Positions 52,612 through 58,487 of a stretch of DNA of 64,000 nt are shown here, piece after piece; positions within the stretch are counted from its first letter, which is position 1; every line of letters begins with the position of its first letter. The notes beneath the pieces were generated by a model that saw only the letters and a list, made by a program, of their open reading frames with translations, did not search any database and was not told where the DNA came from. The position numbers and the translations under genes were made by a program. The stretch comes from Flavobacteriaceae bacterium (GTDB taxonomy: Bacteria > Bacteroidota > Bacteroidia > Flavobacteriales > Flavobacteriaceae): contig JAGYKX010000007.1 in assembly GCA_018401115.1 (NCBI GenBank), forward strand, positions 124,001-188,000. Reading direction: 5' to 3'.

Positions 52612-54795
52612 TTAAAAAGAAAAGGTGGCGCCCAACAAAAAGTTGGTTCCCGCCTGGGGATAGTAGCCAGCTCCTTCTATGGTTGTCACAGTCCCTGGAG
52701 TTGAAAAATCGTCGTCGTAGGTGAAAAAATAACCGTTACTCACAAAAAGATTATTAAACAAATTATTCGCCAAAAGATTCAAACTAATCTCCTTAAAAGT
52801 ATGGGAAGGATTCCAAGTGTATTGGGCATTTAAATCCGTATGGCTGTAGCCTTTTAATACCGAGGCAGCTGAGTCTATATTTCCCATGTACTGCTTACCA
52901 ACCCGCTTGTAGAGCATACTTAAAACAAAGTGATCATCTACCTTATACTGGACCATTTGTCCTGCAATAAATCTTGGTGAAAAGGCTATTTGTGTGTTGC
53001 CAAGGTCCCTGAGTTCCCCATCCCTTTTAAAAAAATAGTCTAGATTCCTATGGTCGCTAAAAGATACATTGGCCTGCCATAACCATTTATTTGAGATTTG
53101 TTTCTGAGCATCTATTTCAATTCCTAACCTATAACTATCTCCCACATTGGCCCTGAGTGGCGCCCCCACATCGTTTAAAGCCCCAGTTAAAACCAGTTGG
53201 TCTTTATAACGCATGTAAAATAGGTTGGTATTTAATTGAAAAGAGGGCGACAAATAACGCCATCCCAACTCTATGTCCCTAAGCTGCTCAGGCTTAGGAT
53301 TGCCACTTTCATAGTCATTTCTATTGGGTTCTCTATTCGCCACAGCATAGGAAACATATATACTATTGGTTTTATTGGCTTGATACGTTAGGCCCATTTT
53401 TGGATTGAAAAAACCAAATTGATCATCTACAAGCCCAGTTTCTTCTCCATTGGCCGTATAGCCCACACCCCTGTACTGAAGATCTACAAAAGAAATCCAT
53501 TTTTGACCAAATTGTTGCTGCCACTTCAAATAAATATTCGCATCTGTTTTAGTAGAAAAATCGTCATAATAGCGGTCTCCTATATGCGCTGTGCCCATAT
53601 GCTGTGCCCAGATCACTTCACCAAAATGTGCCCCTTCATACTTGTTTAATGCACCTCCAAGAATGAGCTGTCCCTTATTGGTTTTCTTGGTCACCGAAGT
53701 AGTGAAGCCATAAAAGCTGTTGTCTAACCACCGCCTTCTTATCAAATCAGTAGGCGTATCTTGCGGCAAACCAATGCCGTAAGAACCATCTGTTTCGCCT
53801 TCCTTATACTGCTCAAAATAACCCCTTCCTCTAGTGAAATGAAGGGCAAATTGGGCGTTCCAACCACCCGCTAATACTTCATTCCAATGTAATTGGGCAT
53901 GGTCTTGTTTGTAGTTGTCCTCTTCCTTGTCATGAAATTGAAGGACTCCATTGACATCTGTGTACATTCCAGATGGATTGAATGTTCTGTTTTCACTAAG
54001 GGTTTGTGTATCTATTCCGTTCCATGCCTGGTAAGTAACCTCATGACCACCAAATAAAAGTCCTTTTAAAGTAGTACTGCCTTTTTGATAGGTACCCTGT
54101 AAAAAGTAAGACGACAAACGGGCGCTTGCCCTGTCAATATAGCCATCCGAAACAATACGAGACAGTCTTCCAGAAAGGCCAAAATGGTTGTTTAAAACAC
54201 CTGTGTTAAACTGAACGCTGTTGTTCAAGGTATTAAAACTACCCACAGCGCTTCTGATTTGGGCAGAGGCTTCGGTCGCAACGTCTTTGGTAGAAATATT
54301 TAAACTGGCCCCAAATGCTCCAGCACCATTGGTAGAAGTACCTACCCCTCTTTGTAGTTGTACAGAAGAGACGGAAGAACCAAAATCTGGCAGGTTCACC
54401 CAAAAAGTACCCTGAGACTCTGGGTCGTTATAGGGAATTCCATTAATAGTTACATTGACCCTAGTCGCGTCTGACCCCCTGACCCTAATTCCGGTGTATC
54501 CAATTCCTGCTCCAGCATCTGAAGTAGTGACTACTCCTGGTAAATATTGCAACAAAATAGGTAAATCCTGTCCTAAATTTCTAGACTCAAAATCTTTGGC
54601 CTTTACATTAGAAAAGGATACCCCCATTGCTTTTGTAGCCCTAAGGGCGCTGACAAAAACCTCGTTTAAGGCAATTTCTTTTTGGAGCAAACTGTCTGTT
54701 TGCTTTTTTGGTACACCATTAGTTGGTTGCTTTGTTTGGGCCCAGACTGCTGTTGTGAGCAGCGCTGTAGCCAGTGTAGTGAAAACAATTTTCAT
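52612..54795 (-). CDS. TonB-dependent receptor under TPP riboswitch (probable thiamine uptake)
   Basis: 727 residues. A signal peptide (1-19, TAVWAQ) precedes the plug region (DLPILLQYLPGVVTTSDAGAGIGYTGIRVRG, RVNVTINGIPYNDPESQG), and the barrel ends in the C-terminal aromatic FLLGATFSF. No CarboxypepD_reg domain is evident. A thiamine pyrophosphate riboswitch lies in its leader, so it should import thiamine or a precursor across the outer membrane. A PnuC-type transporter gene follows the same strand upstream, suiting vitamin uptake. Confidence 0.9.
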   Translation of the reverse strand: MKIVFTTLATALLTTAVWAQTKQPTNGVPKKQTDSLLQKEIALNEVFVSALRATKAMGVSFSNVKAKDFESRNLGQDLPILLQYLPGVVTTSDAGAGIGYTGIRVRGSDATRVNVTINGIPYNDPESQGTFWVNLPDFGSSVSSVQLQRGVGTSTNGAGAFGASLNISTKDVATEASAQIRSAVGSFNTLNNSVQFNTGVLNNHFGLSGRLSRIVSDGYIDRASARLSSYFLQGTYQKGSTTLKGLLFGGHEVTYQAWNGIDTQTLSENRTFNPSGMYTDVNGVLQFHDKEEDNYKQDHAQLHWNEVLAGGWNAQFALHFTRGRGYFEQYKEGETDGSYGIGLPQDTPTDLIRRRWLDNSFYGFTTSVTKKTNKGQLILGGALNKYEGAHFGEVIWAQHMGTAHIGDRYYDDFSTKTDANIYLKWQQQFGQKWISFVDLQYRGVGYTANGEETGLVDDQFGFFNPKMGLTYQANKTNSIYVSYAVANREPNRNDYESGNPKPEQLRDIELGWRYLSPSFQLNTNLFYMRYKDQLVLTGALNDVGAPLRANVGDSYRLGIEIDAQKQISNKWLWQANVSFSDHRNLDYFFKRDGELRDLGNTQIAFSPRFIAGQMVQYKVDDHFVLSMLYKRVGKQYMGNIDSAASVLKGYSHTDLNAQYTWNPSHTFKEISLNLLANNLFNNLFVSNGYFFTYDDDFSTPGTVTTIEGAGYYPQAGTNFLLGATFSF

Positions 54796-54816
54796 TCGTA
54801 ATAAAATTAGTACGAA
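54795..54816 (-). promoter_or_regulatory. Hairpin at the receptor start codon
   Basis: Arms TTCGTA and TACGAA with a 10-base loop end at the ATG. It may hide the ribosome-binding region and form part of the riboswitch expression platform; no strong terminator is seen between aptamer and ATG. Confidence 0.4.
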
Positions 54817-54932
54817 TAAAAGGGGCTGTTATTCTGGTTAAAATTCAGTGAAATGGTCGCTTAAAATACACAGATTGAACTTATTTGATCAAAATAAATG
54901 CGCAAATAAAAAACAATAGTAGCTTTTAAGCA

Positions 54933-55015
54933 GTCCCTTGGCAGCATTACCCGCCCAGGTTCCATGGGTATAATCTCAGCTTATTCAATAAATGAAGTTC
55001 GCACCCCTTTGAGAC
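54933..55015 (-). ncRNA. TPP (THI-element) riboswitch aptamer
   Basis: On the minus strand the conserved core segments are present in order: GGGGTGCG, then GCTGAGATTATACCC, GAACCTG, GGTAATGC and AAGGGAC. Flanking GTCTC (55015-55011) and GGGAC (54937-54933) pair as P1. It lies about 137 bases before the receptor ATG. Thiamine pyrophosphate binding should reduce expression. The 54796-55091 gap holds no gene beyond this element and its promoter. Confidence 0.93.
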
Positions 55016-55019
55016 AAAG

Positions 55020-55050
55020 CAAAGATAGGGGGCAAATCCTTAGGGCACAA
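55020..55050 (-). promoter_or_regulatory. Promoter of the TPP riboswitch transcript
   Basis: TTG (55050-55048), a 20-base spacer and TATCTTTG (55027-55020) match the Bacteroidota promoter. The expected transcript start falls at the first base of P1 of the riboswitch. Confidence 0.6.
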
Positions 55051-55091
55051 TCTTTTTTTAAAGAAATATCACTTGGCGTTTCACTGCGCGC

Positions 55092-56630
55092 TTAGTCAGG
55101 CATATGACCTGGATCGAGTAAGTCTAACACAGTTTTTACGGGGGTAAAGGTTTCTTTGGGCACTTCTATAAAAATGGTATTCCATTCCCACATGCCGCCA
55201 TTCCAAAGCCCTGGAAGTTCTAACACTTTGACCCTTTTGCCCAACCGGTTCTTCTCGGCAATAAAAGCAGTAGATGGATTGTTAAAAGCGGAAAGGTCAA
55301 AAGTTTCTCCTTTGTAGTTTTTAATTCCACAGACAATATCTACAGGATTAAAATGGGTAGACGCTTCAAATATTTCCAATTGTTCTGGGTCCTTAACCGC
55401 CACTTGTGAAGCTTCAATAATCTGAAGGCTTTCTTGGCCTGAGCTGTCCTTTATCCAAAATGGGCCCCCTCCTGTTTTCCCTTCATTCTCCACCATACCA
55501 CAAACCCGTATGGGTCTTTGAAATAACTCCAATAAGAAATCGCGTTGCGCTTCTAGAGTCATTTCTTCAAAGTACTCTGGTAAGTTTTTAGAAAAAGTCT
55601 CCTTAAAATAAGTGACCATAAATGCCAAATCGGTGGCATCTAAGAGAATTTCAGAATCTAAGGCTTCGGTGTAAGCAAATAATTGTTGTTGCACCTGCAA
55701 GAGTTTACCCCCCAATATTTTTTTATACTGTAAAGAGGTATCTAAATAATGTGGAGTGCAAACGTTGTCTACATTTTTTATAAAAATAATGTCGGCCTGT
55801 AAGGCCCCCAAATTATCCAATAAAGCACCATGACCCGCTGGATGAAACACCAAACGTCCGTCTTTATCTCTCAGCGGATGCAAATCCAAACCAACCACCA
55901 ATGTGTCTGTTTCCGACTTTTGATGCGAAAATTGAACCTTAAATGGGCCTAAGTCTCTAAATTTATCTGATGCTGAGATCTCCTTTATGGCCGCATTAAA
56001 AGCGTCTAAATGGTGTTCAGAAATTGTAAAATGCAATTGCGCCTTACCCTTACTTTTGGCATAATGCAGGGCTTCCAAAATATGTTCTTCCAAAACCAGC
56101 GGCGTCTGCCCTTCAATTTTATGAAATGGCAATAAAGCCTTTGGTTTATTCCCTAAATTAAGTCCTGGACTTTGCAATAACGCTTTGAGATAGGCCATTA
56201 CAGAAGCAGGAGCGTCAAATGAAAAATCTACAGGAAGCTGCTTTAAAACGGAGTCGTGAAAAGGAAAATGATGGGCTTCCTTTATAAAATCAGATACTTC
56301 TGCATGGGCTTTTAAGTAAGCAGAAAAAGAAAAATCTTTCGCTTCACTAGCCTCCAAAAATGAGAGTAGTGGCTTAAACATTCTCGTTGCCGCCCCTGAA
56401 GCAGGGACAAATTTAACGGCATTTACTGTGTTTTGAGCTGCCTCAAAAAACTGTGCTAATTTTCGCGCCTCCCTAGGTTTTAAAACAGAAATTCCGTCAC
56501 CGACAGTAGCGGCTCTCTCTAAAGCTTGTTTAGGAATACCCCTTCTAAATGTTTTTAAATCTTCTGTAACCTTATCTACAGAGATATTGAGGTCCTTAAA
56601 TTGTTGAATATCTTGAGCGGTCCAAATCAT
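55092..56630 (-). CDS. DUF4301 protein with nucleotidyltransferase-like motifs
   Basis: 512 residues, DUF4301 family, no signal peptide. PASGAATRMFK (76-86) resembles the glycine-rich LAxGxGTRM signature of nucleotidyltransferases; KPKALLPFHKIEG (162-174) resembles the following Lys-Pro-containing block; and HPAGHGALLDNLG with FIKNVDN (263-289) matches the PxGHGD and NxDN blocks of UDP-sugar pyrophosphorylases. I infer a UDPGP-like GT-A fold; this is not an established annotation to my knowledge. It overlaps the upstream kinase gene by four bases and lies just before the TPP-regulated receptor gene. The substrate is unknown. Confidence 0.8.
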   Translation of the reverse strand: MIWTAQDIQQFKDLNISVDKVTEDLKTFRRGIPKQALERAATVGDGISVLKPREARKLAQFFEAAQNTVNAVKFVPASGAATRMFKPLLSFLEASEAKDFSFSAYLKAHAEVSDFIKEAHHFPFHDSVLKQLPVDFSFDAPASVMAYLKALLQSPGLNLGNKPKALLPFHKIEGQTPLVLEEHILEALHYAKSKGKAQLHFTISEHHLDAFNAAIKEISASDKFRDLGPFKVQFSHQKSETDTLVVGLDLHPLRDKDGRLVFHPAGHGALLDNLGALQADIIFIKNVDNVCTPHYLDTSLQYKKILGGKLLQVQQQLFAYTEALDSEILLDATDLAFMVTYFKETFSKNLPEYFEEMTLEAQRDFLLELFQRPIRVCGMVENEGKTGGGPFWIKDSSGQESLQIIEASQVAVKDPEQLEIFEASTHFNPVDIVCGIKNYKGETFDLSAFNNPSTAFIAEKNRLGKRVKVLELPGLWNGGMWEWNTIFIEVPKETFTPVKTVLDLLDPGHMPD

Positions 56631-57193
56631 TTTTTAGCAAGTAAAGCGTCTATATGTGCTACGGCTGTAGCCAATCTAGTTTTCTTATCCCCTTTTAAAA
56701 GGACATAAGGACGGTTGTATTTATCGAGGGTGTCTTTAAAATAAGTGAACATTTCTGCCCTAGCAGTGGGTTTATCCCTAAGGTCGTCTGCCTCCCACGG
56801 CACGTCTATATAAGTTAGGAAATACAAGTTATAGGAATTTTCCAATGCGTATTTTTCAAGTACTGGGTCACAGTATCCAATATAATAGGCTTCAGAATAT
56901 ACTTTAGTCTCCAATAAATCAGTGTCACAAATTAACAAATCTGTCGCTTTTTGGGCCAATTTGTTTTCTAATGCAATTTGTCCGGCTGCAATGGGTAAAA
57001 GATCATGAGGCTCACAAGTCTTGCGTTCTTCATTCCATTTATCTTGCAAATATCCTCTGGCAAACTCAGGCGCCCAAACCGTGTTGTAGTGTCTGGCCAA
57101 CTGTTCAGATAAAGTTGTTTTCCCCGTAGATTCTGGACCAAAAAGGACTACTTTGACAAGTGAAGTGGGCTGTTGCTTAAATTTTTCTTCCAT
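56627..57193 (-). CDS. NadR-like P-loop kinase (AAA ATPase domain)
   Basis: 188 residues. Walker A GPESTGKTT (19-27) and LICDTDLLETKVYSE are characteristic of the ribosylnicotinamide-kinase domain of NadR. The nucleotidyltransferase half of NadR is absent. It overlaps pnuC by 46 bases and DUF4301 by four, so the three are translationally coupled. In the family the kinase traps vitamin or nucleoside imported by PnuC; here thiamine or nicotinamide riboside are both possible, and the TPP riboswitch nearby favours thiamine. Confidence 0.86.
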   Translation of the reverse strand: MEEKFKQQPTSLVKVVLFGPESTGKTTLSEQLARHYNTVWAPEFARGYLQDKWNEERKTCEPHDLLPIAAGQIALENKLAQKATDLLICDTDLLETKVYSEAYYIGYCDPVLEKYALENSYNLYFLTYIDVPWEADDLRDKPTARAEMFTYFKDTLDKYNRPYVLLKGDKKTRLATAVAHIDALLAKK

Positions 57194-57786
57194 GATTGGT
57201 ATCCGAGTAGGGCAATAATAGTAAACAGTATATATTGAAAGGCGGTAAAGGTAAGGCCTTTATACCAATAAAGTGGTATGCTAATCAGGTTCCCTACAAT
57301 CCAAAAATGCCAGTGCTCCCATTTTTTTTTAGCCATAAGCCACATGGCAACAAAGAATATTGCGGTAGTAAAAGTGTCTACATAAGCCGTCCATACTCTA
57401 AACATATCAAAGGACATATATACCACAACCACAAACAAAATAGCGCCAATAAATAAATAGCCGGCTTTACGCCAGTCATTTCTAGAAACTCGAGATATTT
57501 GAGGCTCATGGTGTTCTGTTCCTTTATACCACCAAAACCACCACCCATAAATACTCATTGCGGTGTAATAGCCATTAATCAGCATGTCTCCCAGCAAACC
57601 GTACACCCATAAGATATAAACAAAAATACCTGTGCTCACCAAACCTGTTGGAAAGACAAGTATATTCTCTTTATGGGCAAACCACACAGAGAGCACCCCT
57701 AAAAATACTGCGGTCATCTCCAAGCCAACCAAAATAGGGGACGCCCCAAAATAAGCCCCAAAGAAAAATTCAAATACCTCATTCAT
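57148..57786 (-). CDS. pnuC: PnuC-family vitamin/nucleoside transporter
   Basis: 212 residues, about seven hydrophobic helices. The aromatic block MSIYGWWFWWYKG and HWHFWIVGNLISIPLYWYKGLTFTAFQYILF are typical of PnuC transporters, which carry nicotinamide riboside, riboflavin or thiamine (PnuT) by facilitated diffusion coupled to a kinase. The gene overlaps the kinase gene by 46 bases. PnuT identity is inferred from the nearby TPP-controlled receptor, not from a diagnostic residue. Confidence 0.9.
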   Translation of the reverse strand: MNEVFEFFFGAYFGASPILVGLEMTAVFLGVLSVWFAHKENILVFPTGLVSTGIFVYILWVYGLLGDMLINGYYTAMSIYGWWFWWYKGTEHHEPQISRVSRNDWRKAGYLFIGAILFVVVVYMSFDMFRVWTAYVDTFTTAIFFVAMWLMAKKKWEHWHFWIVGNLISIPLYWYKGLTFTAFQYILFTIIALLGYQSWKKNLSNSPLHLSK

Positions 57787-57803
57787 TTAGCACTATTTAT
57801 CTG

Positions 57804-58487
57804 TTAATAGACACTTCCATTTTTTTTAGCTTCTAAAAAAGCTTCTTTTAATTGGCCCTCTCGGGCCGATGCCTTTTGAATTTCTAACCCCCAAACACCT
57901 CCAAAATCACCTATTTCAAAAAGGTGTATTTCAAAAAATTGTTGGAACCCATTCACTGGTGCACAGGCGGCTAAAATAGCCCCTGAAAACCAAAAGACCC
58001 CAATGTCTTTTAAAAAACTCAATCCTGGGGTCCCGATTATTTTGTATACCGTTTCCTTAGCAGCCCAGATATGAGTCAAGGTAGGCACAGCTGTTTCATT
58101 AGTAGCGCCATAAGTGGTAAATTTATGTGCAATTTTAAGTATCTTATCCCTTTTCATCTCTATATCTATACCAACCGGTATATTTTTATGCACTACCAAA
58201 GCTGTTTGTATAAAAGAATGCGATATTGAGACAAAGCTTCCATCTTTAAGATGGGGTTTACCATGCAAATCATATGATAAATCACTGTCTTGGTAGCCTG
58301 CTATTTTTAACAAATGCCTAATGCTCAAATAAGCCCTTCTATGCAGTTCAGATTTCATATGAGCCAGTCGGTCTTTACTGTAAGCTGCCAGAGAAATACC
58401 CTCTTGCAAAGCAGGCTCAGATTCCGTGACCTCCCACAGATATACCATGCCATTTGAATCTATTGGAATTGTCTTTTGGAGCGGCAT
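57804..58487 (-). CDS. 4'-phosphopantetheinyl transferase, Sfp type
   Basis: 227 residues. The magnesium-binding motif VGIDIE (Asp108, Glu110) and the catalytic WAAKETVYK (Trp141, Lys144, Glu145, Lys149) are intact. It transfers phosphopantetheine from CoA to a carrier-protein Ser. It lies 17 bases upstream of pnuC on the same strand, so may share a transcript although the roles differ. It is divergent from ahcY. Confidence 0.92.
   Translation of the reverse strand: MPLQKTIPIDSNGMVYLWEVTESEPALQEGISLAAYSKDRLAHMKSELHRRAYLSIRHLLKIAGYQDSDLSYDLHGKPHLKDGSFVSISHSFIQTALVVHKNIPVGIDIEMKRDKILKIAHKFTTYGATNETAVPTLTHIWAAKETVYKIIGTPGLSFLKDIGVFWFSGAILAACAPVNGFQQFFEIHLFEIGDFGGVWGLEIQKASAREGQLKEAFLEAKKNGSVY

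Follow-up and report, generated by a model that had tools for sequence, protein, structure and literature searches.

A NadR-type kinase as a candidate thiamine kinase in a probable TPP aptamer-linked uptake locus of Flavobacteriaceae

Which enzyme would phosphorylate imported vitamin B1 in bacteria that carry neither thiamine pyrophosphokinase (TPK) nor a convincing ThiE? This question is raised by a locus in a 64,000-nucleotide stretch from a Flavobacteriaceae bacterium (GenBank assembly GCA_018401115.1, contig JAGYKX010000007.1, positions 124,001 to 188,000 of the forward strand), hereafter the window. Five minus-strand open reading frames (ORFs) in the ORF listing of the window encode a 4'-phosphopantetheinyl transferase-like protein (PPTase), a PnuC-family carrier, a NadR-type kinase, a DUF4301 protein and a TonB-dependent receptor. 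The initial annotation read them as a run from PPTase to DUF4301, with pnuC and the kinase gene overlapping by 46 bases and the kinase and DUF4301 genes by 4 bases, leading into a receptor preceded by a thiamine pyrophosphate (TPP) aptamer, and this layout was confirmed by the ORFs, Pfam and an aptamer search. We consider it probable (about 0.72) that this is a locus for vitamin B1 uptake and trapping, with the NadR-type kinase replacing TPK and DUF4301 not needed.

On this reading, a separate promoter would drive the TonB receptor and its TPP aptamer would shut it down; the receptor would bring thiamine across the outer membrane, and the PnuC-type carrier would let it cross the inner membrane. 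The kinase would then convert thiamine to thiamine monophosphate (TMP), which could not leave the cell, and ThiL, presumably encoded elsewhere in the genome, would make TPP from it. The kinase would replace TPK (ThiN/Tnr3) in these bacteria, while DUF4301, whose place between kinase and aptamer is seen in the window's family and one further family (f2), would be dispensable for salvage.

Kinase, TPK, ThiE and ThiL across the order

Using a profile of the kinase (A3) and PF04263 for TPK, we searched 148 sampled genomes from the order. Matches to A3 numbered 94, in 92 genomes, and two of these matches (the second ones of G133 and G143) were fused to NMN adenylyltransferase (NMNAT); TPK was found in 49 genomes. 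NMNAT fusions were recognised throughout by what we take to be the NMNAT motif, not by a family search. The two enzymes were largely mutually exclusive: 84 genomes had the kinase only, 41 TPK only, 8 both and 15 neither (Fisher p = 3.5e-16, ignoring relatedness). The window's genome (a 2.37-Mb assembly, 91% complete) gave no match to PF04263. Within the window's family, the only kinase-less members of the sample (G064 and G119) both have TPK; they keep pnuC and DUF4301, as do six other DUF4301 loci that lack the kinase.

ThiE was counted in 33 genomes (best E ≤ 1.3e-22), the other 28 of the 61 genomes with any match at E ≤ 0.001 being dropped as weak. Of the 92 kinase genomes, 78 had no TPK and no strong ThiE, the two established routes to phosphorylated thiamine covered by the search, and thiamine there therefore needs another phosphorylating enzyme. 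As 73 of these 78 genomes contain a ThiL match (E ≤ 0.001, a few of them weak), uptake followed by a thiamine kinase and ThiL is the simplest pathway. The NadR-type kinase is thus a candidate for the absent step, with thiamine as its putative substrate. ThiL exceeded its cut-off in 117 of the 148 genomes.

The TPP aptamer and its link to the kinase

A TPP aptamer was present in 87 of the 92 kinase genomes vs 26 of the 56 others. For 44 of the 94 kinase matches, it lay 20–717 nt downstream on the same strand. None of these 44 was in a genome with DUF4301; where DUF4301 genomes have an aptamer downstream (same contig and strand, ≤15 kb), the distance is 1.6–8.1 kb and other genes intervene. In a kinase tree, the window's kinase fell within a supported set of 19, of which 17 were labelled aptamer-linked, and aptamer linkage required 9 changes vs 25.6 after shuffling, with labels that include two kinases (L067 and L081) wrongly marked as aptamer-linked.

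We then mapped kinase regions more widely. Of 20 regions within the order, the majority from other families, 15 had pnuC immediately ahead of the kinase and 11 showed a mapped aptamer (on the opposite strand in G033); of 20 regions from outside the order (19 from the class, 1 from the phylum), 11 had pnuC in that position. Because the pair recurs in both sets, its range is broader than that of its association with DUF4301.

In the window itself, no TPP aptamer reached the Rfam gathering score (54.3). A local search returned one below that score (40.2 bits, E = 1.6e-6), which was the sole match at E ≤ 0.001 in the whole genome. Since such matches occur in 113 of the 148 order genomes and only 41 of these are above the cut-off, weak scores are usual in the order. 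We also examined 80 named DUF4301 loci, the best 80 of at least 586 matches to a profile of 23 DUF4301 proteins and hence biased towards the window's kin. A model built from 24 aptamer members, including that of the window, found the aptamer in 66 of them. Across 69 aligned rows (the window, the 66 loci and two second matches; the alignment was itself fitted to the structure), 99.3% of pair cells were standard pairs, vs 38–55% in slid controls, and both sides changed in 5 of 13 pairs. The TPP aptamer is real but weak.

Because the aptamer is placed between DUF4301 and the receptor, the four upstream genes are not downstream of it. All 67 loci compared (the window and the 66 named loci, which are related to each other and not independent) have TAnnTTTG, which we take to be the Bacteroidota -7 promoter element, beginning 9–14 nt 5' of the aptamer; the motif occurs anywhere in 54 of 660 upstream control windows of equal length. 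Together with an upstream TTK at 17–23 nt, it was found in 41 of the 67 loci vs 7 of the 660 controls. Because this promoter-like motif stands just before the aptamer in each of these loci, the riboswitch seemingly controls the receptor alone. The motif suggests that the aptamer and receptor likely have their own transcription start, leaving pnuC, the kinase and DUF4301 outside riboswitch control.

Substrate of the kinase and place of DUF4301

Several observations speak against a thiamine kinase that replaces TPK. The sampled genomes are related, so the complementarity reflects fewer independent events than the cells of the cross-table, and all 8 genomes with both kinase and TPK belong to a single genus (g2). 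Among the 15 genomes with neither, three have ThiE, ten are 52–84% complete and one is 0.3 Mb; the true exception, G145 (99% complete), has an aptamer and ThiL without the kinase, TPK or strong ThiE. Auxotrophy and the gap in thiamine phosphorylation are presumptive, since TPK, ThiE and ThiL were the enzymes searched for, to the exclusion of ThiK-type kinases, ThiC, ThiD and ThiM. ThiL was not found in the window's own 91%-complete genome; it was above the cut-off in 7 of the 12 genomes of the window's genus (in those at least 90% complete, four of five have a match, one partial), and all 20 other genomes of the family in the order sample carry it (E < 1e-89). No alignment column clearly separates 34 aptamer-linked kinases from 11 NMNAT-fused ones (L067 and L081 left out). 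Outside the order, an aptamer accompanied 5 of the 20 kinase regions, the other 15 having none within the approximately 10 kb searched; kinases without an aptamer may have another substrate. Finally, the kinase is fused to DUF4301 in 17 of the 80 named loci, which could mean a shared function.

The kinase and carrier also bear names that point to nicotinamide riboside (NR). The best family matches of the kinase (188 aa) are NadR models, all below their cut-offs: it covers positions 164–320 of TIGR01526 only (99.6 bits vs a cut-off of 341.15) and has no NMNAT domain, and profile A3 matches NadR chains in the Protein Data Bank (PDB) down to E = 2.9e-26 (1lw7, 8x7f, 9x6f and 6gye), the nearest structures. 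Its start at 57193 is supported by a Met aligned there in 12 of 12 rows of profile A3. The pnuC product matches PnuC 4qtn by phmmer (E = 4.8e-7), and TIGR01528, an NR-type name within the pnuC-kinase pair, exceeds its cut-off (93.2 vs 42.45 bits). The initial annotation had allowed that the coupled genes serve NR and merely neighbour a thiamine receptor. That pnuC and the kinase serve NR, with the receptor alone serving thiamine, would agree with these names, with the aptamer-free regions outside the order and with the aptamer's own promoter-like motif, as nothing shows TPP control of pnuC and the kinase in cis. We nevertheless regard it as unlikely, particularly for aptamer-linked kinases, because 44 of the 94 kinase matches abut an aptamer, a thiamine-binding-like gene precedes pnuC in many relatives and the kinase complements TPK. 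In addition, G133 and G143 hold their NMNAT-fused NadR-like protein besides the kinase. The receptor, PnuC and trapping kinase of the thiamine uptake set first proposed are thus supported, by the thiamine-binding-like gene and by the way in which the kinase tracks TPK absence; a role for DUF4301 in that set is not.

What DUF4301 contributes was addressed through its fold and distribution. An AlphaFold2 model (pLDDT 91.7, pTM 0.91) had UDP-glucose pyrophosphorylases (UGPases) as its best Foldseek matches (E = 2.1e-11, TM 0.46–0.50), and VIA gave a Z of 24.0 to 2i5k_B (yeast Ugp1p), with 323 of 512 residues aligned at 3.7 Å. Its conserved stretches PASGAA.RM, PK, GHG and N.DN resemble what we take to be motifs of UGPase and UDP-GlcNAc pyrophosphorylase, and a mostly helical stretch (residues 86–152) lies between two of these presumed motifs. 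The sequence link to UGPases in the PDB is weak (2i5k at E = 0.14 with profile A1; nothing at E ≤ 5 with profile A2), and the sole Pfam match of the window's protein at E ≤ 0.001 is PF14134, with no match to UDPGP. PF01704 (UDPGP) was found in 0 of the 148 order genomes, where the controls were likewise silent. Judging by the modelled fold, DUF4301 is probably a UDP-sugar-pyrophosphorylase-like enzyme.

DUF4301 occurs in 26 of the 148 order genomes and 66 of 395 phylum genomes. The initial annotation had linked it to the thiamine setting, and the survey does not bear this out: DUF4301 is absent from 69 of the 92 kinase genomes, accompanies none of the 44 kinases with an aptamer close by and exists elsewhere without these genes. 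Its absence from comparable clusters, which the initial annotation had named as a refuting result, was thus observed everywhere except in the window's family and family f2. Even within the window's family, three members (G030, G072 and G087, 100% complete) keep pnuC and the kinase without it. We compiled 39 DUF4301 loci of other families, comprising all 30 phylum-sample matches outside the window's family (some on short contigs) and 9 named loci titled outside Flavobacteriaceae (possibly overlapping). Within five ORFs, the kinase, pnuC, the thiamine-binding gene and the receptor were found in 0 of the 39.

A working part for DUF4301 in thiamine salvage, for example nucleotidyl transfer to thiamine phosphate, is accordingly very unlikely, despite the 4-base overlap, the synteny in the window's family, the nucleotidyltransferase-type fold and the fusion to the kinase in 17 named loci. 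Besides the distribution just described, six named loci have retained pnuC and DUF4301 but not the kinase, and in four genomes (G121, G130, G135 and G140; loci L329, L326, L327 and L328) the same kinase is fused instead to PPTase (matched by the profile of that gene at E = 4.5e-23 to 3.6e-11), with an aptamer 22–41 nt behind the kinase match. Since the kinase also fuses to this other neighbour, fusion follows adjacency and is alone no proof of shared function; we take the fusions as weak evidence for a common one. It is likewise very unlikely that kinase and DUF4301 act as one salvage enzyme, forming TMP and then adding a nucleotidyl or other modification, which would give Flavobacteriaceae a new thiamine nucleotide or TPP route. 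DUF4301 as a replacement for ThiL, an idea arising from the absence of ThiL from the window's genome, was rejected on the ThiL matches in the genus and in all 20 other family genomes.

A further neighbour fits a sugar-nucleotide role for DUF4301. Within the order, 6 loci from two families have a GT3 glycogen synthase gene (PF05693) immediately ahead of DUF4301 (L061, L062, L068, L063, L064 and L065; the G044 locus was lost from this count through the ORF filter), and in L062 and L068 it stands between the kinase and DUF4301. GT3 enzymes of heterotrophic eukaryotes are described as using UDP-glucose (PMC11046441). A link to glycogen itself was set aside, the gene being found in 0 of the 80 named loci and beside 0 of the 39 other-family loci. 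GalU (TIGR01099) was found in 0 of the 148 order genomes at a strict E ≤ 1e-40, with or without DUF4301, which says nothing either way on whether DUF4301 replaces GalU. At that limit, a standard GalU does not supply UDP-glucose in the order.

A further alternative, that the kinase is itself a pyrophosphokinase making TPP in one step, would suit the five kinase genomes lacking TPK, strong ThiE and any ThiL match (G000, G037, G083, G106 and G146), but is very improbable because these are 65–94% complete, ThiL is widespread in the order and present in most of the genus, and NadR kinases transfer one phosphate.

The locus, its relatives and known systems

The features of the window's locus are collected in Table 1. 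The PPTase-like gene is a conserved neighbour, with no role in thiamine salvage expected.

Table 1. Features of the thiamine-related locus, in window coordinates.
Feature	Position	Strand	Evidence
PPTase-like gene	57804..58487	-	PF01648 (ACPS) 28.3 bits, cut-off 25
PnuC-family carrier, probable thiamine carrier (PnuT-like)	57148..57786	-	PF04973 (NMN_transporter) 164.8 bits
Stand-alone NadR-type ribosylnicotinamide-kinase domain, proposed TMP-forming thiamine kinase	56627..57193	-	PF13521 (AAA_28) 143.9 bits
DUF4301, predicted UDP-glucose-pyrophosphorylase-type fold	55092..56630	-	PF14134 575.5 bits; predicted model
Promoter-like motif TATCTTTG, matching TAnnTTTG	55020..55027	-	Motif 9-14 nt before aptamer in 67/67 loci
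TPP riboswitch aptamer of the receptor	54917..55018	-	RF00059 40.2 bits, E 1.6e-6
TonB-dependent outer-membrane receptor, proposed thiamine receptor (OMthi/OMR1 type)	52612..54795	-	PF00593 and PF07715 (TonB barrel and plug) over cut-off; relatives adjoin aptamer

Among the 80 named loci, PPTase was found in 68, a PcrB-like gene in 45, a thiamine-binding-like gene in 35, pnuC in 65, the kinase in 60, an ArfB-like gene with an RF-1 domain in 49 and the TonB receptor in 65. Where frames overlap, the ORF filter retains the longer one, leaving L298 and L308 without a kinase ORF and L013 and L069 without a DUF4301 ORF. Typically, an opposite-strand gene, which we take to be AHCY, is followed by PPTase, PcrB-like, Thiamine_BP, pnuC, kinase, DUF4301, ArfB-like, aptamer and receptor. 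Many relatives have, just before pnuC, a small gene that matches Pfam Thiamine_BP (PF01910; 29.5 bits vs a cut-off of 24.9) and is absent from this stretch of the window. Three Aquimarina loci (L156, L165 and L169), among the 14 named loci without an aptamer, retain DUF4301 without pnuC, kinase, receptor or aptamer, and two other Aquimarina loci (L152 and L182) carry the block.

Some arrangements stand apart. In L156, L165 and L169, PPTase and DUF4301 are followed by a 1145-residue ORF of unassigned kind. Small ORFs of ~100 residues and a regulator-like ORF of ~450–470 residues lie between DUF4301 and the aptamer-receptor unit in L114, L121, L124, L125, L126 and similar loci, often together with a large histidine kinase (HK)-like ORF; in L058, the regulator between DUF4301 and the aptamer resembles, by eye, a sigma54-type response regulator. 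L175 is titled Klebsiella pneumoniae and carries the flavobacterial block, the title probably being a binning or label error, and L189, titled as a Proteobacteria metagenome-assembled genome (MAG), has DUF4301 without the block.

The locus resembles the thiamine uptake genes of gut Bacteroidetes, where OMthi, pnuT and tnr3 lie near TPP riboswitches (PMC5613172). Common to both are a TPP aptamer before a TonB receptor, a PnuC-family carrier and, by inference here, an ATP-using enzyme that activates thiamine. In contrast, tnr3 (TPK) is apparently replaced here by the NadR-type kinase; the genes for kinase and carrier precede the aptamer and, judging by the promoter motif, fall outside its transcript; and PPTase, PcrB-like, ArfB-like and DUF4301 genes are additional neighbours. 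Marine MAGs of Flavobacteriales and MAGs of Cytophagales are reported to have omr1 and thiL and no thiamine biosynthesis (PMC12236431), the same salvage pattern as here, yet the portion of that source considered names no thiamine kinase for them. The specificity of PnuC-like carriers has been argued to be predictable from their riboswitch (PMC7749635), although the riboswitch here stands beside, not before, pnuC.

At the protein level, the kinase shares with NadR the ribosylnicotinamide kinase domain and P-loop (by sequence), but lacks the NMNAT and DNA-binding domains and is tied to thiamine genes. The predicted DUF4301 fold follows UTP-glucose-1-phosphate uridylyltransferases of the UDPGP superfamily along the chain (2i5k, 2icx and 4r7p; Z of about 22–24), differing in the helical stretch and in having no Pfam UDPGP match. 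A literature search of titles and abstract beginnings, with subscription papers outside its reach, returned no NadR-type thiamine kinase named among the matches listed and no characterisation or function of DUF4301.

Placing DUF4301 in the UGPase fold makes this family directly testable. For the kinase, the implications reach further, as 78 of the 148 order genomes carry it without TPK or strong ThiE. If it acts on thiamine, it would fill this gap as a NadR-type thiamine kinase, many 'nicotinamide riboside' annotations would need correcting, and its presence would mark Bacteroidota that depend on external B1.

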